The position numbers and the translations under genes are program-made. Below, piece after piece: positions 3,262-21,585 of a DNA stretch of 35,403 bases (position 1 is the stretch's first letter; each line of letters begins with the position of its first letter). The stretch covers positions 1-35,403 of the forward strand of contig CAIRYQ010000052.1 of NCBI GenBank assembly GCA_903882875.1. Direction: 5' to 3'. The notes beneath the pieces were generated by a model, which saw only the letters and a list, made by a program, of their open reading frames with translations, was not told the origin of the DNA and made no database searches. This stretch comes from an uncultured Spartobacteria bacterium (GTDB lineage: Bacteria; Verrucomicrobiota; Verrucomicrobiia; Chthoniobacterales; Chthoniobacteraceae).

Positions 3262-4812
3262 TCAATACCCGATGCTTTCCAGTGCACTATCGCCGAGGCG
3301 CTCGCGCAGTTGGGCGAGATATAGGCTTTTGGGCAGCACATGCGTCCCGTGCGACGAAAGCCACGGGCTCTTTTCAACAGCGCCTTGCTTCAGCCCGCCG
3401 ATGCAGCCGATGCACCAGTTGATCGCTCCGGGCGGCTGTTGCACGTCGAATAACTTCGCCGTGCAGTTCCAAGCCACCGCCCAGCCGACGGCCCACCCGT
3501 GCCCCGAACCGGCGGTTCCCCGGTTGATGAAATCAATTTTTCCATCCGGGAGATGGCAGCCATCCAACAGGAGACCCGTGGACCAGCGCATGTGCGGCTG
3601 GATGCCGCCCTTTCCCTCAAAGGTGCAATTCAGCGCCACATTCAGGACCGCGCCGGAATTCAAGGTGGCCACATAGAACGCCCCATCACCGGACGAAGTG
3701 CAGCGGTCAATGAGAACCTGGGAGCCAACGAGGGTGAAATCCGACGGATAACCCGCACCCTTGGCGACGCTCGCGGTGTGGGTGGCGTGGACGGACTGGA
3801 TGGTGATGCGCCGCGCGCCGCCCAATACCCTGACAATGTTCAGGGCGTCATGCGTGGTGACATCCCTGACCCAGCAGTCCTCGCAGTGGTCGAGTTCGAC
3901 TGCCGTGTTGTTCGGTGCTGCAAGGTCGCCAGCGGGAGGGGGTGAATGGATCTGCAGCGATTCCAGGCCGCATTGTGCGAGGCGGGGCGGCTCCGTCGTT
4001 TTGATCACTACGGCGGTGTCCGGCGCGAGGAGCCGCGCATCAATGGCGTCGGTAAGCGGCACATCCAGCGTCAGGCGGCTGCCGTTGATGGAACGGATGG
4101 TGCGGTCGAACACAGTCGGCGAATTGGCTTTGATCCACGTTTGTGGCTTCCCGTCCCGCACCAAGGCGTCCATGCCCATGAAGTGAATCCACTTCTCTGT
4201 CCTCGGCCAGCGGATGCGGATGGCGTCGCCGACTTCAAGCCCCTTCACGCTCCCGACAGAAAGACTCTGCACGCCGGATGGCACATAGTCATCGGTGATT
4301 GGGAAAAGCCCCGCCGGATTCTCCTTTGGAAAGGACATCCGCCCGCCGATGATCTTCACCGCGGTATGGGGTGTGCCTGTCATTTCGATCACAGTGCCGC
4401 CATTGCCCGAGCCGGAACCTCGCAGGACAACACCTTTTTGGGAAATGGTGAGTGGCTTGGAGCAATGGAATGTTCCAGGCCGAAGTAACACCGCCCCGCG
4501 AATATCGTCCGTCAGCGGCAGCTCGGCGATATAATCAAGGGCCTCTTGGATGGCGGATGAATCATCTCCGCCCGAGGGGGCGACCTCTTTGCGAACGGGG
4601 CAGGTCGTAAGCCTAACCCCGCCACCCCGATAGCCTGCATGGGAAAAATCCACGATACGATCCCCATTGCCGGTGCGTTGGTAACTGAGTTTCCCACTGT
4701 CTCCAGGGATGACCCACGGCGTTGGGTGCGGCGGCTGTGCATCGGCTGAATGAAGTGGAGTCAGCCGAGCGAGCAACAGCAGCACGGTGATGTGAGAGAA
4801 GTTGGATTTCAT
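3262..4812 (-). CDS. secreted right-handed beta-helix (pectate-lyase-like) protein
   Basis: This 516-residue protein starts at ATG 4812, chosen because it begins with a signal peptide (MKSNF, then ITVLLLLARL, cleavage after residues 22-26). An upstream in-frame ATG at 4881 would bury the signal. The mature part shows the pectate-lyase-superfamily pattern: GGDDSSAIQEALDYI near residue 100, GAVLLRPGTFHCSKPLTI, GVVLRGSG, and later LDHCEDCWVRDVTTHDALN and VLIDRCTSSGDGAFYV, as expected for coils of a parallel beta-helix. It probably acts on or binds polysaccharide outside the cytoplasm, but catalytic residues cannot be assigned. It lies 418 bp downstream of the cytochrome gene and may be independent of it. 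Confidence 0.8.
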   Translation of the reverse strand: MKSNFSHITVLLLLARLTPLHSADAQPPHPTPWVIPGDSGKLSYQRTGNGDRIVDFSHAGYRGGGVRLTTCPVRKEVAPSGGDDSSAIQEALDYIAELPLTDDIRGAVLLRPGTFHCSKPLTISQKGVVLRGSGSGNGGTVIEMTGTPHTAVKIIGGRMSFPKENPAGLFPITDDYVPSGVQSLSVGSVKGLEVGDAIRIRWPRTEKWIHFMGMDALVRDGKPQTWIKANSPTVFDRTIRSINGSRLTLDVPLTDAIDARLLAPDTAVVIKTTEPPRLAQCGLESLQIHSPPPAGDLAAPNNTAVELDHCEDCWVRDVTTHDALNIVRVLGGARRITIQSVHATHTASVAKGAGYPSDFTLVGSQVLIDRCTSSGDGAFYVATLNSGAVLNVALNCTFEGKGGIQPHMRWSTGLLLDGCHLPDGKIDFINRGTAGSGHGWAVGWAVAWNCTAKLFDVQQPPGAINWCIGCIGGLKQGAVEKSPWLSSHGTHVLPKSLYLAQLRERLGDSALESIGY

Positions 4813-16114: not shown

Positions 16115-16924
16115 TCAGAGTCCGAAGATCGAGAGCTTGTGCTGCGCGGCGAGGGCGCTGACGCGGTCGCGTTCGAGGATGATCGTACGGCCCGCCTCGA
16201 CGCCGATGATGCGCACGCCGGCGTCGCGGCAGCTCTCCAGTGTCACGGGGCCGATGACGGGCACGTCGAAGCGCAGGTCCTGATCGGGCTTGCTCACTTT
16301 CACCATCACGGCATCGCCGCGGCCGAGCGCGCCGCCTCGCTTGATGCATTCGTTCGTTCCCTCGAATGCCTCGACGGCGAGCACGGTGCCGTTTTTCACG
16401 AGCACCGTCTGGCCGATGTCGAGGCGGCTGACCTCCTTCGCGATGTCGTGGCCGTAGCGCAGGTCGTCCTCCACGCGCGATTTGATCTTCGGCCCGGCGA
16501 TGAGGCCGGCGGGCGCGAGGTGATCGTCCATGAAAGTCGTCGCGGGCAGCAGCTCGACGCCGATCTTTTTCATCTCCTCGCCGATGGCGGCAAAAATCGT
16601 CTCAGCGTTGCGGCGCTTCAATCGCGCGAGGAGGAAGAGCGCTTTGAAATCGGGCCGCAGGTCGAAGAGATTTTTCGGTGCGATCTGTCCGGCCATCACC
16701 GCGTGGCGCGTGCCGCTCTTTTCGAGATACTTGAGCAGCTTCCCGAGTTGGCCCACGCGTAGCCATGCGATGTCGTCCACCTCCGGCGCGAGCCGGTCGC
16801 TCGTCTCATCCGTGAACGACGCGGCGACGATGCGCTTCACGCCCGCCTTGCGCGCGCCGCGCACCATCGCAAACGGGTAGCTTCCGTTTCCGGCGACGAT
16901 GGCGAGTGTGTCAGGGATGTCCAA
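16115..16924 (-). CDS. lpxI: UDP-2,3-diacylglucosamine diphosphatase LpxI
   Basis: This 269-residue protein of the LpxI (formerly DUF1009) family hydrolyses UDP-2,3-diacylglucosamine to lipid X, replacing LpxH. The family start LAIVAGNGSYPFAMVRGAR is clear, as are VMAGQIAPKNLFDLRPD, LPATTFMDDHLAP and KVSKPDQDLRFDVPVIGP. The last holds the aspartate (about D220) equivalent to the catalytic D225 of the Caulobacter enzyme. It is the first gene of the minus-strand lpxI-dehydrogenase-lpxB run and diverges from nuoD across 124 bp. Confidence 0.95.
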   Translation of the reverse strand: MDIPDTLAIVAGNGSYPFAMVRGARKAGVKRIVAASFTDETSDRLAPEVDDIAWLRVGQLGKLLKYLEKSGTRHAVMAGQIAPKNLFDLRPDFKALFLLARLKRRNAETIFAAIGEEMKKIGVELLPATTFMDDHLAPAGLIAGPKIKSRVEDDLRYGHDIAKEVSRLDIGQTVLVKNGTVLAVEAFEGTNECIKRGGALGRGDAVMVKVSKPDQDLRFDVPVIGPVTLESCRDAGVRIIGVEAGRTIILERDRVSALAAQHKLSIFGL

Positions 16925-17048
16925 GGCGGGCGCACGCTACGCGCTCACCACCACGCGCGGCAATTCCCAAGCGACGACGCGCAAATTGCAAAATGCCTTG
17001 CGCCACTCCCCCACCGCTCGCATCGTCGCGGGCACCAATTTTCCACAC

Positions 17049-18299
17049 ATGGCAGCAAGCACCGTTGAGTTAGAAATTCCCGACACCATCGCCCGCGCCG
17101 AGGCCGGCATCTCGAAGACGGAGGGCGACATGCTCGGCGAGAAGATGATCATCAACATGGGCCCGTCGCATCCCGCGACGCACGGCGTGCTGCGGCTCAT
17201 CCTGGAGATGGACGGCGAATACATCACGAAGGCCACGCCGGAGGTCGGCTACCTGCACCGCGGCGACGAGAAGATCGCGGAGAACATGACCTACAATCAG
17301 TTCATCCCCTACACGGACCGGCTCGACTACCTCGCCCCCATCGCGAACAACGTCGCCTACGCGCTCGCCGTGGAAAAGCTCATGGGTTGGGAACTCCCCG
17401 CCCGCGGCCAGGCCATCCGCGTCCTCTGCTGCGAACTCGCGCGCATCTCCGCGCACCTCCTCGGCATCGGCTGTTTCGCCATGGATACGGGCGCGATGAC
17501 CGTCTTCCTCTACACCTTCCAGCAGCGCGAAATCGTGTACAACCTGATGGAGCAAATCACCGGCGCGCGCTTCACCACCAGCTACACGCGCATCGGGGGA
17601 ATGGTCCGCGACATCAACGAACGCATCATCAGCGACGTCCGCAAATTCTGCGAAGGCGTGCTCCCCGTCGTGGACGAGACGGACAAGCTCCTCACGCGCA
17701 ACCGCATCTTCGTGGACCGCACAAAGGACATCGGCACCATCACGAAAGAGCAGGCCATCAACTACGGCCTCAGCGGCCCGAACCTCCGCGCCAGCGGCGT
17801 GGACCACGACCTCCGCAAGCGCCAGCCCTACTGCGGCTACGAGCAGTATGAATTCGACATCCCGCTCGGCTCCATCGGCGACAGCTACGACCGCTACCTC
17901 GTCCGCATGGAGGAAATCAAACAGAGCGTCCGCATCCTCCGCCAAGTCTGCGACACCATGCCCTCCGGCGAGTGGTATGTGAACGACCCGAAGAATTATC
18001 CCCCGCCGAAGACCACCGTCCTCACCAAGATGGAGGAACTCATCCACCACTTCCTCATCCACACCGAGGGACTGAAGGCCCCCGAGGGCGAAGTCTATTT
18101 CGGCGCGGAAAACCCGAAGGGCGAACTCGGCTTCTACATTTACAGCAAGGGCGGCGGCACGCCCTACCGCCTGAAGATCCGCAGCCCCAGCTTCATCAAT
18201 CTCAGCATCCTGCCAAAGCTCCTTCCCGGCCACATGATGAGCGACGTCGTGAGCATCCTCGGCTCCCTCGACTTCGTGATGGGCGAGTGCGACCGGTAA
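17049..18299 (+). CDS. nuoD: NADH-quinone oxidoreductase subunit D
   Basis: This 416-residue 49-kDa subunit of respiratory complex I forms much of the quinone-binding pocket at the membrane interface. Diagnostic segments are NMGPSHPATHGVLRLIL, EVGYLHRGDEKIAENMTYNQ, the hydrogenase-like SYTRIGGMVRD, and the C-terminal [17 protein letters not shown] 17049 was chosen over an upstream in-frame ATG at 16899, which would add 50 low-quality residues and overlap lpxI. No other nuo gene is adjacent, so the complex I genes are split in this genome. The last 118 bp up to the stop are repeated at 19044-19161, beyond the HNH cassette. Confidence 0.96.
   Translation: MAASTVELEIPDTIARAEAGISKTEGDMLGEKMIINMGPSHPATHGVLRLILEMDGEYITKATPEVGYLHRGDEKIAENMTYNQFIPYTDRLDYLAPIANNVAYALAVEKLMGWELPARGQAIRVLCCELARISAHLLGIGCFAMDTGAMTVFLYTFQQREIVYNLMEQITGARFTTSYTRIGGMVRDINERIISDVRKFCEGVLPVVDETDKLLTRNRIFVDRTKDIGTITKEQAINYGLSGPNLRASGVDHDLRKRQPYCGYEQYEFDIPLGSIGDSYDRYLVRMEEIKQSVRILRQVCDTMPSGEWYVNDPKNYPPPKTTVLTKMEELIHHFLIHTEGLKAPEGEVYFGAENPKGELGFYIYSKGGGTPYRLKIRSPSFINLSILPKLLPGHMMSDVVSILGSLDFVMGECDR
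18181..18298 (+). repeat. 118-bp direct repeat, copy 1 (3' end of nuoD)
   Basis: Positions 18181-18298 match 19044-19161 with four mismatches by my count (about 97% identical), starting at GCAGCCCC and ending at GACCGGTA in the stop codon. This copy is the functional end of nuoD. The two copies flank the HNH cassette. Confidence 0.93.
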
Positions 18300-18368
18300 A
18301 AGCGGAAGCCCGCTCGGACTCACAGCCTTTCCTTGCCGCTTCACAGTTGGGAATGTAGTCTCCACCGC

Positions 18369-18623
18369 ATGAGCACTCAGACAGCCTTCCATCGTGGCGT
18401 GCATCCGCTCCTCCGGCTCCTGCTTCCGGGAAAGGAGAAGGCCGTGCTGACTGCGAAGCCCGATCGCGCGCTGCTCGAACGCATCGAGCAGCTCGCGGCA
18501 AAATCCACCGAAGGCAAACTCACCGCCAAGGAACGCGATGAATACGAGGGCTACGTGCGCGCCAACAAATTCGTCGCCACCCTGCGGCGCGAAGCCCGTG
18601 CGATGAAAACCAGCTCGCTGTGA
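18369..18623 (+). CDS. small protein partner of HNH endonuclease
   Basis: This 84-residue, basic, helical protein starts at ATG 18369. Its C-terminal half has the pattern LLERIEQLAAKSTEGKLTAK, then ERDEYEGYVRANKFVATLRR. I recognise this type of short protein as a frequent companion of HNH nuclease genes in Planctomycetes, Verrucomicrobia and Cyanobacteria. Its stop overlaps the GTG start of the HNH gene as GTGA, so the two are translationally coupled. A toxin-antitoxin-like relation or a DNA-binding helper role has been suggested by context only. Function is unknown. Confidence 0.75.
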   Translation: MSTQTAFHRGVHPLLRLLLPGKEKAVLTAKPDRALLERIEQLAAKSTEGKLTAKERDEYEGYVRANKFVATLRREARAMKTSSL

Positions 18624-19000
18624 ATGCCGCGACGCGCACCCTGGTGCGTCGGCGCGCTGCGGATCGCTGCGAGTATTGCCAGCTTCATCAGGACGACTCG
18701 CCCCTCGCCACCCTGCACATCGAGCACATCCGCCCGCGCAAGCACGGCGGCACCGACCACGAGTCGAACCTCTGCCTCGCGTGCATTGACTGCAACCTGC
18801 GCAAAGGCCCCAATCTCACGGGCATTGATCCGCAGACCGGCGAAGTCACCCCACTGTTTCACCCGCGCCAGCAAAAGTGGGATGATCATTTCGCATGGGA
18901 GGGAATCCGCATCACCGGAAGGACAGCCATCGGACGCACGACCATCCAAGTTTTGGAAATGAACTCCGACGACCAGCTCAACCTCCGCGCGGAAGGGTAG
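18620..19000 (+). CDS. HNH endonuclease
   Basis: This 126-residue HNH nuclease starts at GTG 18620, overlapping the partner stop. The zinc-binding pairs are C17/C20 (CEYC) and C55/C58 (CLACIDC). The catalytic HNH core includes HIEHIRPRKHGG (H33/H36, H42), N50 and N59. The C-terminus has the conserved LTGIDPQTGEVTPLFHPR and W.DHF segments of the PVC/cyanobacterial small HNH family. It probably nicks or cleaves DNA in the cytoplasm. Its position between two copies of the nuoD 3' end suggests a mobile or homing-like cassette. Confidence 0.9.
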   Translation: MNAATRTLVRRRAADRCEYCQLHQDDSPLATLHIEHIRPRKHGGTDHESNLCLACIDCNLRKGPNLTGIDPQTGEVTPLFHPRQQKWDDHFAWEGIRITGRTAIGRTTIQVLEMNSDDQLNLRAEG

Positions 19001-19043
19001 TAGAATGCCGCTCGCTTAAAATCTCAGCCCGCCTTCCGCTCAT

Positions 19044-19161
19044 GCAGCCCCAGCTTCATCAATCTCAGCATCCTGCCGAAGATTCTTCCCGGCCACATGA
19101 TGAGCGACGTCGTGAGCATCCTCGGCTCCCTCGACTTCGTCATGGGCGAGTGCGACCGGTA
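19044..19161 (+). pseudogene. 118-bp direct repeat, copy 2 (displaced nuoD 3' end)
   Basis: This fragment encodes the last 39 codons of NuoD in frame and ends in TAG instead of TAA. It differs from copy 1 at four bases. These give a synonymous Pro change, Leu to Ile, and a synonymous Val change. It has no start and no upstream nuoD sequence. It is probably the original nuoD end displaced by an insertion, or what remains of a second nuoD. Confidence 0.9.
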
Positions 19162-19219
19162 GCGAAGCAGCGATGCTCTCCCGAACTGCGAGATGTGCTG
19201 ACGGCGGTCTTGAAAATAA

Positions 19220-20074
19220 TCAGTCTGTCCCTTGTTCCCGCTTTAGCACTTCCGACCAAGTGGTTGGCAAGATTTCAAGTTCAAATCTCTTTTTGGCGAG
19301 GCGCGCTTTTTTCAAGGGAACAGAATCTAACCCGCTGGTCTTGCATGCTTGATTCAGCCTTAAGATGACATCCTTCTCGATAAGTGCTCCAAGAATCACA
19401 CATTCAACCGCCTCTACGGAGAAAGGGAGATACTCGCCATCATTCAGAGTCTCCGGTCGGTGAGTGGCTCGCCATTCTCTCTCATAGCTCCATTCTCGAC
19501 TTTTTCGTTTAAACAGCGGCAACAGGCTTTCTGCGGAACATTGCTCGTCATGAACGGTAGTGATATCAAATTCAGGACGCTCATCATCATACTCCACTTC
19601 AAATAATAGCGTTGCTGGTTTTGTTTCGATCAGCACGTCTGAACGGAATCCAACAGCGAATCCACGATGATTTTGTCCATAGTGACTCCATAGCAACACC
19701 CCATTGTTGCGGCTTGATAGGCACAGAACTCGGGTGCCAGTTGCGACCCTCGACCACTCGGCGATCGGGTTGTCATAGATTACCTCCCATCGCGCTTTCC
19801 ATGCCGCAACCATTGCAGGTGTAATTTTTTCATACATATCAAACCTCGTGGCACTTCGCTCTAAATAGTTACGTATGATACTTGGATCTCTGACCTCCTT
19901 AAAAACAGGCAACATGTCAAAGGGATCGTTCATCGTCCCTATTTTAGATAATTTGAATCGCCGAGCCGAAAGAATATTGGTTGTATCCCTGCCTCCCTCT
20001 GGAGGAGGAAGGTATTGATAGACAATTCTTGGAACAGGATACTTCTCGCTTAATTCTACTTCGCGATCACTCAT
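19220..20074 (-). CDS. DUF2971 domain protein
   Basis: This 284-residue protein starts at ATG 20074 (MSDREVELSEKYP). It has the DUF2971 pattern: LYQYLPP-like N-terminus (IVYQYLPPPEG), FKLSKIGTMNDPFDM near residue 45, LCLSSRNNGVLLWSHYG with HRGFAVGF near residue 125, VEYDDERP, then SREWSYEREWRA. These are the hallmark polar positions of the family, whose biochemical role is unknown; members often sit in mobile or defence regions. The gene is clearly more AT-rich than its neighbours, indicating transfer. It sits between the HNH cassette and a VapBC pair. Confidence 0.8.
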   Translation of the reverse strand: MSDREVELSEKYPVPRIVYQYLPPPEGGRDTTNILSARRFKLSKIGTMNDPFDMLPVFKEVRDPSIIRNYLERSATRFDMYEKITPAMVAAWKARWEVIYDNPIAEWSRVATGTRVLCLSSRNNGVLLWSHYGQNHRGFAVGFRSDVLIETKPATLLFEVEYDDERPEFDITTVHDEQCSAESLLPLFKRKSREWSYEREWRATHRPETLNDGEYLPFSVEAVECVILGALIEKDVILRLNQACKTSGLDSVPLKKARLAKKRFELEILPTTWSEVLKREQGTD

Positions 20075-20104
20075 AGCGGCACACAAGGACAGGCAGATTA
20101 TCCG

Positions 20105-20566
20105 TCATCGCCCCCTGCGGCCTAAGAGGTGCAGAACCCGCACGCCCGCCGCTTCGGCGAGGGCTTTTTGTTCCCCGTCAAATGTCAGGATCGCATCGGC
20201 GCCCGTTTCGATGGCGATGGCGACGTGGAAAAGATCCATCCCGCGGATGGGCACGGAGAGGCCGTGCTCTGCGCTGAGTTCACACGCGGTGCGGACGGCG
20301 TCGCGCCAGTCGAATTCCGCGTGCGGCCAGTAGCCGAGGCGGACTTCCTGTTCGATGATGCGGATTTGCTGGCGCGCGTCGCCGGAATCTATCGCGCCCG
20401 TGCGCTCCAACTGCCGGAAGGCATTGAAGACTTCGACGCGATGCCACGGCGTCCAAAGCACCTTCGCCTGCGGATGCCTGTCGAACAGCGTGAGCGCCGC
20501 ATCATGGTTTGCATCGCGCCGCGACTTATAGGCCAGCCACCACGAGGTGTCCGTGTAAACGGTCAC
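20105..20566 (-). CDS. VapC-like PIN-domain ribonuclease toxin
   Basis: This 153-residue PIN protein begins at GTG 20566 (translated MTVYTDTSWWLAY). Acidic site residues are D6 in YTDTSW, E in HRVEVFNAFRQLER, D in RGMDLFHVAIAIETGAD, and D in ILTFDGEQ, the normal four-residue Mg-binding set. VapC toxins cleave RNA, often initiator tRNA or rRNA. The start overlaps the stop of the upstream 49-residue protein as GTGA, the typical antitoxin-toxin coupling. All key residues look intact. Confidence 0.88.
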   Translation of the reverse strand: MTVYTDTSWWLAYKSRRDANHDAALTLFDRHPQAKVLWTPWHRVEVFNAFRQLERTGAIDSGDARQQIRIIEQEVRLGYWPHAEFDWRDAVRTACELSAEHGLSVPIRGMDLFHVAIAIETGADAILTFDGEQKALAEAAGVRVLHLLGRRGR

Positions 20567-20712
20567 TTCTTGAGTCCGCGCAGAAACGCCACTCCGTCGA
20601 ATTTCGGTTTCGTGGGATCACCCACGGCGCGCGCCTCGGCGAGTGCGCGGGTCATGCGCGGGCGGGCCTTGTCAGCGGCCCTGCGGCTGGGTTTGCGAAC
20701 GGCGGCTTTCAT
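20563..20712 (-). CDS. short antitoxin of the VapC-like toxin
   Basis: This 49-residue basic protein starts at ATG 20712 and ends in a 4-nt overlap with the PIN toxin gene. The N-terminus is rich in Arg and Lys (KPSRRAADKARPRMTRALAE), suggesting DNA binding. The C-terminus, KPKFDGVAFLRGLKK, is likely the toxin-binding tail. No family is certain from sequence, but size, order and coupling fit an antitoxin. A perfect inverted repeat immediately upstream is a likely autoregulatory operator. Confidence 0.65.
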   Translation of the reverse strand: MKAAVRKPSRRAADKARPRMTRALAEARAVGDPTKPKFDGVAFLRGLKK

Positions 20713-20713
20713 G

Positions 20714-20731
20714 GTGCAATGGATATTGCAC
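20714..20731 (-). promoter_or_regulatory. candidate autoregulatory operator of the VapBC-like pair
   Basis: GTGCAAT-GGAT-ATTGCAC is a perfect 7-bp inverted repeat with a 4-bp spacer, ending one base before the antitoxin start codon. Its position would let a bound antitoxin block transcription or translation initiation, as in other type II toxin-antitoxin operons. Confidence 0.5.
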
Positions 20732-20866
20732 GCAGGTGGCGCGATCAAGGAGGAAGAGGCATGGACTGATTATTCACCCCAGCCCGGAGGTCTGCGCGGA
20801 ATGGTGCCGGTGCGTGGAGCCCGCCGGAGGCGGACGCAACCACCGGAGCCCCGCCACCCCACGGAC

Positions 20867-20926
20867 ATGCGCCCCGGCAGCGCGGGGATGCGGCATGGAG
20901 ATTCCCTCGACACATCCGGGGCGCAT
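20867..20926 (-). terminator. GC-rich inverted repeat after FN3-like paralog 2
   Basis: ATGCGCCCCGG at 20867-20877 pairs perfectly with CCGGGGCGCAT at 20916-20926, and a smaller CCCC/GGGG hairpin lies inside. It follows the stop of the minus-strand FN3-like gene by about 27 bp. There is no T-run, so a terminator role is only possible. Confidence 0.3.
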
Positions 20927-20952
20927 CGCGTGTTCCGCGGCGGGTATGCGAT

Positions 20953-21585
20953 TCAGACCACCGTGATCATGGCCGGGTCGCTCCAGGCGCCCATCACGCC
21001 CTTGGCCCCCACGGTGCGGACGCGCACCCAGATGGTGCTGCCCACCGTGAGCCCGGTGAGGATGGCCTTGCCGCCGCTGAAGACGATGCCGTGCCGCCAG
21101 TTTGCCTCCGCATTCGGGTCGCCCTCGCACACCTGCGCCTCGTTCGTGCTGCGCGCGCGGTCCGGGCGGCAGCGGGCGGTGATGCTCGTGCTCACCGGCC
21201 CGTGCGTGAGGCGGAGATTCGCCGGCGCGGCGGGCACCCCCGAGGGCGGACGCGCCGTGGTGTAGGAGGGGAAGCCGCTTTGCGACACGATGATCGCATC
21301 GCCCTTCGCGATGAAATTCACATAGTTGCCGAGACTCGCCAGCGCATCCGCGAGGGCGCTGCGGGCGGCCTTCGCCGCATGGATGTCCGCCGTGGCGCGG
21401 CTCGCCTTGGCCGCGATTTTTCCCTCGAAAGTCCCGATGATGGCCAACAACGCAGGCATCGCCACCGGCGGGTCGGGAAAGGTGGCCGCATTTGCCGACA
21501 TCTGGCTGTGGATGTTCAGGGCCACGGGCGTAAGCGCCGCGCCCTTGAAAGCGCTGAATTCAATGGCTGCCTTGGTCTTGCTCAT
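20953..21585 (-). CDS. fibronectin type III-like domain protein (paralog 2)
   Basis: This 210-residue protein starts at ATG 21585 (MSKTKAAIEFSAFKG). The N-terminal half is helical, with FPDPPVAMPALLAIIGTFEG and ARSALADALASLGNYVNFIA. The C-terminal half from about residue 118 is a fibronectin-III-like domain (PAAPANLRLTHGP, then ILTGLTVGSTIWVRVRTVG and GAWSDP). It aligns along its length with the protein at 565-1326. No signal peptide is seen. Upstream on the same strand are a CGGCCCTTT motif (21709-21717) and a long 21-bp tandem array, the arrangement also found at the first locus. Function is unknown; the in-frame extension upstream to 21729 lacks support. Confidence 0.82.
   Translation of the reverse strand: MSKTKAAIEFSAFKGAALTPVALNIHSQMSANAATFPDPPVAMPALLAIIGTFEGKIAAKASRATADIHAAKAARSALADALASLGNYVNFIAKGDAIIVSQSGFPSYTTARPPSGVPAAPANLRLTHGPVSTSITARCRPDRARSTNEAQVCEGDPNAEANWRHGIVFSGGKAILTGLTVGSTIWVRVRTVGAKGVMGAWSDPAMITVV

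Follow-up and report, generated by a model that had tools for sequence, protein, structure and literature searches.

The DNA on contig CAIRYQ010000052.1 (assembly GCA_903882875.1) of an uncultured Spartobacteria bacterium raises the question of how a two-gene cassette, a small open reading frame (ORF) followed by a gene for an HNH protein, came to lie directly behind nuoD and between two copies of the 3' end of that gene. The whole stretch of 35,403 nt that was analysed is called the window, and the genome to which it belongs G000. A sequence-only reading had seen in the arrangement a mobile unit that inserted at the end of nuoD and restored the gene with a copy of its own, leaving the displaced original behind; a homing-like mode driven by the HNH nuclease was held plausible, with decay of a duplicated nuoD as the alternative. 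From the analysis described here we consider it somewhat more likely than not that recombination with related foreign DNA, of a kind that duplicates gene ends, placed a toxin-antitoxin-like module next to nuoD. The pattern is real and general, and its driver is probably not homing by the HNH protein.

As evidenced by the alignment of the two nuoD ends, copy A within the complete gene and copy B behind the cassette (Table 1), the last 118 nt of nuoD recur without gaps at 97% identity (BLAST expectation value, E, 9.6e-52 within 10 kb). The sequence-only reading was correct in the extent of the repeat, in its four mismatches and in their consequences. The copies differ at 18215 (A/G), 18219 (C/A), 18221 (C/T) and 18278 (G/C), so that the codon pairs AAA/AAG and GTG/GTC are synonymous and CTC/ATT changes leucine to isoleucine. 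Note that the base just after the repeat also differs, the stop codon being TAA in copy A and TAG in copy B. Similarity starts inside nuoD and ends at the second base of the stop codon, and nuoD itself is intact, with 544.6 bits against the NCBIfam NuoD model (cut-off 459.35). When the entire window was scanned for direct repeats of at least 40 bp within 6 kb, only the nuoD pair and a local imperfect repeat at 303-490 were found.

The cassette comprises two short co-directional genes with the smaller one first, and this order, together with their overlap, is the layout of a toxin-antitoxin operon. The small protein has no match in Pfam or NCBIfam at E 0.001 and none in PADLOC or PHROGs at 0.1; 53 members of its family gave weak matches to DUF896 only, the best at 1.6e-4. 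An AlphaFold2 model based on 53 sequences predicts four helices with a mean predicted local distance difference test (pLDDT) score of 94.0. This predicted fold found no match in the PDB at E 0.001, and we therefore take no functional reading from it. For the HNH protein, residues C17, C20, H36, C55 and N59 are among the columns that are invariant in 32 relatives, and the endonuclease motif is intact. The protein matches the PADLOC models for PtuB, which is not a toxin-antitoxin family, at up to 2e-12, and neither it nor the small protein matches any known toxin or antitoxin family. We infer that the HNH protein may act as a toxin-like partner rather than as a homing enzyme.

The two genes occur together and have a sporadic distribution. 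Among the best 80 of 175 relatives of the HNH protein, with one genome per species scanned, the small ORF is located immediately upstream of the HNH gene in every case, at a distance of -8 to +38 bp. Within the order the module was found at 15 places in 10 of 213 genomes (E 1e-15). Its nearest relative in this same-order set is 76% identical and resides in a genome from another family (G054), whereas congeners reach 57% at most, and inheritance was therefore not simply vertical. On the DNA level the similarity to the G054 copy spans 18368-18979, which covers both ORFs and nothing outside. In all seven relatives where both could be located (G002, G004, G006, G008, G014, G031 and G054), the HNH pair is on another contig than nuoD. 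A phage or plasmid origin of the cassette was considered and rejected: HNH relatives were found in two phage records and in 38 plasmid records, the latter all below 60% identity and the best of them cyanobacterial. Ten of the plasmid records were opened, and there a short hypothetical gene precedes the HNH gene, except in L383 where none is annotated; three of the ten have a BrnT, MazF or ParD gene nearby.

At the nuoD locus itself, relatives lack both the cassette and the second end. The gene was found in 51 of 57 genomes searched, and in each of the 29 relative loci that were fetched the 118 bp are matched once and the cassette is not matched at all. These 29 include seven congeners with a nuoD hit, all single-ended and cassette-free; in two further congeners, G005 and G007, nuoD was not hit. 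Among the genomes seen, only this one therefore has a second end and the cassette at nuoD. The empty site anticipated by the sequence-only reading was thus recovered in one part, a single 3' end without cassette, but not in the other, as the sequence that follows position 19162 was not seen next to it: the 1,239 bp behind copy B gave a match of only 34 bp, in one congener (G004), because the DNA after the nuoD stop codon is not conserved. The matched segment in G004 (L004 2120-2153) starts twelve bases after the nuoD stop and is 91% identical to positions 20265-20298 in a PIN gene of the window; it may be what is left of a VapC module that stood at this gene end. By eye, copy A and G003 share about 20 bp of similarity beyond the stop codon, which was not used here.

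Gene-end duplications recur around HNH pairs elsewhere. A locus was counted as straddled if a direct repeat of at least 30 bp and at least 75% identity lay within 2.5 kb on each side of the HNH gene, and control points were placed in the same loci more than 3.5 kb away. By this measure 17 of the 80 HNH loci were positive, versus 24 of 879 control points. With a stricter geometry (right copy at most 250 bp from the HNH gene, left copy at most 1.2 kb upstream, at least 50 bp) the numbers were 10 of 80 and 2 of 1750. Thirteen of the 17 positive loci were viewed. Four of them show gene ends confirmed by family scans, belonging to uvrA, a methylase gene, a DUF1501 gene and a CHASE2 cyclase gene (Table 1); at L166 the repeat was recognised by eye as a gene 3' end, and the remainder is non-coding or unclear. 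The prediction that the cassette would be found at other gene-end duplications was thus borne out at these genes, but not at the loci that are free of a straddling repeat.

More complex arrangements were also encountered. At positions 3374-6005 of L067 the start of an ECF sigma gene (~130 bp) is present three times in near-identical form, interspersed with an HNH pair and a PIN module. An array of 42-bp tandem repeats follows, and the intact sigma gene located farther on is only 66% alike. The stretch that separates the first of these fragments from the HNH pair contains a 33-bp inverted repeat (3533-3565 and 3617-3649), 97% complementary. L177 has repeats that alternate with an HNH pair and a ParE gene, and a PIN gene lies past them. 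Duplicated 3' ends of DUF1501 genes accompany an HNH pair in one genome and a PIN gene in a second one (L349 1082-1155), and this gene family may be a repeated entry port.

The signature is not specific to HNH, because VapC modules without an HNH gene show it in the same genome. Straddling repeats of at least 50 bp were found at 9 of the 23 VapC-type (PIN) genes fetched from G000, and at 10 of 23 when repeats of at least 30 bp were admitted, while none of 30 response regulator genes (the best-scoring 30 of 87 matches) was straddled. Regularly spaced points in 17 sequences of this genome, which served as a random control, gave 15 of 675 at 50 bp and 28 of 675 at 30 bp; these points are not independent, include two from the nuoD repeat of the window itself and count some repeats at several neighbouring points. 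Ten regions of G000 viewed as background held 12 direct-repeat pairs, which are counted in the random control, and the interpretable ones look like multi-copy intergenic elements, a pilin duplication and a signal-peptide similarity rather than inserted modules. At the PIN loci of this genome the duplicated ends belong to trpB, an iron alcohol dehydrogenase (Fe-ADH), a GFO/IDH oxidoreductase and a DinG/YoaA-like helicase, and in congeners to cysK, hpnD, glyA, DUF1501 and ffh. The recognised repeats measure ~50 to 400 bp, and their distances to the module are variable. A second set of 60 PIN loci from congeners, hand-picked from the remaining list and with some right flanks cut by contig ends, yielded 13 of 60 at 50 bp and 15 of 60 at 30 bp.

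The nature of the differences between paired copies is informative with respect to their origin. An unused self-copy should differ at all codon positions, and an excess of third-position differences therefore speaks for two alleles. Counting differences at codon positions 1, 2 and 3, in this order in square brackets, we obtained [0,0,12] in 310 bp for cysK (G001; locus L369) and [2,0,10] for uvrA, both without amino-acid change, [2,1,12] for the methylase gene and two of two third-position differences for ffh. The DUF1501 end gave [1,0,4] in L349, and in L175 seven of ten differences are at third positions, with one stop codon in the fragment. The nuoD copies, with [1,0,4], belong to this group too. 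We read the group as two functional alleles joined recently, and the pairs without such a bias as older. For the majority of the 3' ends listed, the alignment breaks off within a few bases of the stop codon, as it does when orthologues with different intergenic DNA are compared.

Further loci connect the repeats to the modules and indicate that the events are not confined to single assemblies. The helicase and trpB cases are common to G000 and G004, two separate assemblies of different sequence, each with both copies; a single copy of the helicase end is present in six congeners fetched, and of trpB in four, a fifth (G003) being cut by a contig end. Fragments of the last ~100-130 bp of the GFO/IDH gene appear at C2, C87 and C128 in G000, and C38 in G004 holds two of them. 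They recur beside different VapBC-like modules, in four of the five cases remote from the native gene, and gene ends therefore travel with such modules. At C2, C87 and C38 the fragments are accompanied by a shared stretch of ~50-60 bp before the antitoxin-type start. Finally, a closed plasmid of the cyanobacterium Geminocystis sp. NIES-3708 (L389 1752-3400) carries repeats of 57-69 bp that comprise the promoter and the first codons of a DUF1156 gene; they stand ahead of a BrnT module, ahead of an HNH pair and at the DUF1156 gene itself. The pattern is therefore not confined to metagenome assemblies. Among the ten plasmid loci this is the sole case of at least 50 bp, with one more of 38 bp.

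Table 1. Features of the nuoD locus in the window and gene-end fragments at other loci.
Feature	Position	Strand	Description	Basis
nuoD	16899..18299	+	complete gene	ORF; NCBIfam NuoD 1.1e-163; Pfam Complex1_49kDa
Copy A	18181..18298	+	duplicated nuoD 3' end within the complete gene	repeat alignment
Left gap	18299..18368	+	copy A to module, 70 bp, includes last base of nuoD stop; no similarity to copy B flank claimed	
Small first gene	18369..18623	+	84 aa, predicted four-helix protein	ORF; homologous ORF precedes HNH gene in 80/80 loci
HNH gene	18620..19000	+	126 aa, GTG start overlaps small-gene stop by 4 bp	Pfam HNH 6e-11
Right gap	19001..19043	+	HNH stop to copy B, 43 bp	
Copy B	19044..19161	+	detached nuoD 3' end, frame intact, stop TAG to 19162	
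uvrA 3' end	L132		second copy cut by contig end	family scan
Eco57I-type methylase gene 3' end	L160		with downstream DNA	family scan
DUF1501 gene 3' end	L175 6549-6656		at HNH pair	family scan
CHASE2 cyclase gene 5' end	L174			family scan
GFO/IDH end fragments	L198 2444-2559; L202 6104-6199; L236 2386-2499; L235 2531-2653 and 3428-3554			

According to the reading that we prefer, the small ORF and the HNH gene would constitute a compact module of toxin-antitoxin-like type, inserted precisely where nuoD ends. The module would have come with, or recombined through, a diverged nuoD 3' end from a related lineage, leaving a complete nuoD beside the module and a second, detached end on its other side, with one of the copies derived from foreign DNA. 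Entry would rely on gene-end homology at one junction, the second junction being less homologous, either by one-sided homologous recombination as in transformation or by integration of a circle that contains the module and a gene end. Homology-facilitated illegitimate recombination is known from transformation. Through like events, other gene ends would have received VapBC modules, HNH modules and modules containing ParE or BrnT. An insertion that left nuoD whole and duplicated its end, as the sequence-only reading had it, is supported by the single-ended, cassette-free congeners, by the recurrence at other genes and by the coding-type differences between the copies, which speak for two alleles rather than a decaying duplicate.

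Which of the two nuoD ends is native is a separate question, and here the evidence leans the other way from the earlier proposal that the unit supplied the end of the gene and that copy B is the displaced original. At the four mismatch sites copy A reads A, C, C, G and copy B G, A, T, C, while G003 and G004, the nearest congeners, both read G, C, C, G and so match copy A at three sites and copy B at one. The ATT codon of copy B is present in nuoD of G002 and G008, and its GTC codon in G009 and G028. Over 119 bp the two copies differ at 5 positions, copy A from G004 at 4 and from G003 at 5, and copy B from G004 at 5 and from G003 at 8; the corresponding figures are 7 for G003 and G004, 7 for copy B and G008 and 10 for copy A and G008. 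A tree of these 119 bp places copy B outside a group of copy A, G003 and G004, with weak local supports of ~0.77. The last 115 bp of the intact nuoD differ from G003 and G004 at 5 and 4 positions and are neither nearer to them nor more remote than the other nine segments compared, which gave 2 to 14. The comparison leans towards copy A as native and copy B as the stranger, although five sites decide little.

Several observations weigh against the preferred reading. A majority of 63 of the 80 HNH loci lack a straddling repeat, as do 13 of 14 same-order loci (some of which overlap the 80) and the 76% identical locus in G054. Among ParE matches only 1 of 11 was straddled, and the 27 best-scoring PIN loci of the congeners, 8 of which had truncated flanks, gave 2 of 27 at 50 bp, near the random rate, and 4 of 27 at 30 bp. 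The codon counts are divided as well: there is no third-position excess for trpB [6,3,3], Fe-ADH [4,4,5], GFO [5,8,10] and the helicase [0,4,4], hpnD [3,1,6] and glyA [4,1,5] are intermediate, and the count for nuoD, [1,0,4], rests on five differences. CHASE2 [31,21,42] was grouped with the decayed or mixed cases. The 14 cases counted are those in which the genes were recognisable, and seven of them were labelled young after the counts had been seen. The pairs without the bias would fit decayed self-copies, or else decayed foreign ends. Conversely, allelic recombination that replaces the end of the intact gene after a self-duplication could also yield third-position differences. Finally, the toxin-antitoxin function is putative, and no antitoxin family is matched by the small protein.

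Beyond the nuoD case, we tentatively entertain a broader mechanism, to which we give rather less than even credence. Toxin-antitoxin-type modules and small-ORF and HNH modules would spread between related bacteria without an integrase, carrying the end of a housekeeping gene as a homology arm, and the other end would remain as a scar. Recombination would rebuild one complete gene, hybrid or native. Such modules would be a bacterial chromosomal counterpart of the mobile ORFs of fungal mitochondria, driven by addiction instead of homing.

Among the alternatives, strict insertion with long target duplication stands up best, although we regard it as unlikely. It would require staggered breaks ~118 bp apart at the end of nuoD that were filled in, so that both copies are resident. 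Nobusato et al. (2000, Gene 259:99; cited in PMC2654758) reportedly described insertion with long target duplication of restriction-modification genes. The phenomenon is documented for such genes in Helicobacter pylori in PMC1643837, PMC3031569 and PMC3154945, and the pattern is set out in PMC3031569 and PMC1643837. In both situations a small accessory and potentially addictive module is flanked by long target repeats of variable length, no transposase is seen adjoining, and here the gaps are variable too and no recombinase gene was found nearby. The decay of several fragments without third-position excess, for example those of trpB and Fe-ADH, is likewise as expected. However, an untranslated self-copy should not differ at third positions only, as the cysK fragment does in 12 of 12 differences and uvrA nearly so; the methylase gene and, on five sites, nuoD speak in the same direction, and the position of copy B outside copy A, G003 and G004 in the tree, weak as it is, also points away from two resident copies. 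In contrast to the described cases, the modules here are HNH pairs and VapC-type systems, the hosts are Verrucomicrobiota and members of other phyla, ends of housekeeping genes often make up the repeats, and several young cases resemble alleles from different lineages.

Homing by the HNH protein, in which the enzyme would cut a cassette-free nuoD and repair would copy the cassette and the gene end while the old end was left behind, is improbable in our view. Its attraction lies in the anatomy. According to PMC3630166, mobile endonuclease ORFs of fungal mitochondria replace the C-terminal part of a gene with one that they carry, the native part being found beyond, in Allomyces atp6 and in Glomus atp6, atp9, cox2 and nad3. 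Like the nuoD locus, these cases comprise a complete gene end, an endonuclease-type ORF and a second end, their divergence is mainly synonymous, and a foreign origin of one end has been proposed in the same text. The HNH motif is conserved and the two nuoD copies differ in a coding-type manner, both in line with homing. Unlike here, the fungal elements in that source employ LAGLIDADG or GIY-YIG enzymes, reside in organelle DNA and replace the gene end in frame. Modules without a homing-type enzyme show the pattern too, VapC modules lacking an HNH gene carry it in the very same genome, and the HNH pairs of the relatives sit at other places rather than at the same gene end; 63 of 80 loci are without gene-end homology. 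In none of the seven relatives does the pair lie at the nuoD site, and the case is therefore not filed as homing, contrary to the mode that the sequence-only reading had thought plausible. In our analysis the nuoD case rather works like a mixture of target-duplication insertion and the end-carrying ORFs of fungi.

An assembly artefact that joined two strains of the metagenome is very improbable. The genome is a draft of 129 contigs with 1.92% contamination, most positive loci stem from metagenome-assembled genomes, the four isolate records that could be recognised in the set of 80 HNH loci (L104, L141, L144 and L146) are all negative, and mixed strains would give two alleles that differ at third positions. 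Against this, the junctions contain no repeat that would allow an assembler to jump, two separate assemblies have both copies at the helicase and trpB genes, a closed isolate plasmid carries an array of the same kind with repeats of 66-69 bp, and response regulators of the same assembly score 0 of 30. Least probable of all is a decayed tandem duplicate of nuoD beside which the pair arrived later by another route: the second end does lie downstream and some relatives have paralogous nuoD-like genes, but none of the seven congeners with a nuoD hit has a second end near nuoD, copy B retains an intact frame with four conservative changes and the gene's own stop, and the recurrence at many other genes would be coincidence.

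Other established types of mobile DNA were also compared. The HNH domain scores 48 bits against the NCBIfam model guided_IscB, but the cut-off is 175 and the match is limited to residues 4-65; since no Rfam match at E 1 exists in 17000-21500, an IscB or IS200/605 element was rejected, and with it structured RNAs such as an IscB guide RNA or introns in this region. The window contains no transfer RNA (tRNA) or transfer-messenger RNA (tmRNA) gene, which dismisses an attachment site of this kind, and no recombinase is among the 15 ORFs of the window that were scanned with Pfam. In comparison with integron cassettes, the repeat here is coding DNA of nuoD. Similarity to type II toxin-antitoxin systems is closer: like VapBC in the same genome, the HNH pair has overlapping short genes with the smaller first, a sporadic occurrence, toxin-antitoxin or defence neighbours and the same gene-end signature, whereas unlike these systems it matches no toxin or antitoxin family, and its toxicity is putative. 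With respect to neighbours, copy B is followed on the opposite strand (19220-20566) by a DUF2971 gene (PADLOC candidate PDC-S31, 4.4e-38) and a PIN gene, and judging from these matches the region 3' of nuoD resembles a small group of genes of the defence or toxin type. A search of the literature revealed no report of gene-end duplication around a toxin-antitoxin or HNH module, although a search by literal terms in open-access text is weak evidence of absence.

The movement of small chromosomal toxin-antitoxin modules without a transposase is an old open question, and the pattern described here suggests a way for such modules to settle beside essential genes without breaking them. If modules habitually bring along a diverged gene end, the scar would give the age of arrival, the donor and the gene that served as entry port, and it would tell whether essential genes are favoured through the restoration of their ends. 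Direct repeats should delete the module between them unless its loss is punished, and the repeats would therefore mark modules that are still addictive. For genome annotation it is of practical relevance that gene-end fragments of this kind are easily taken for pseudogenes or gene duplications.

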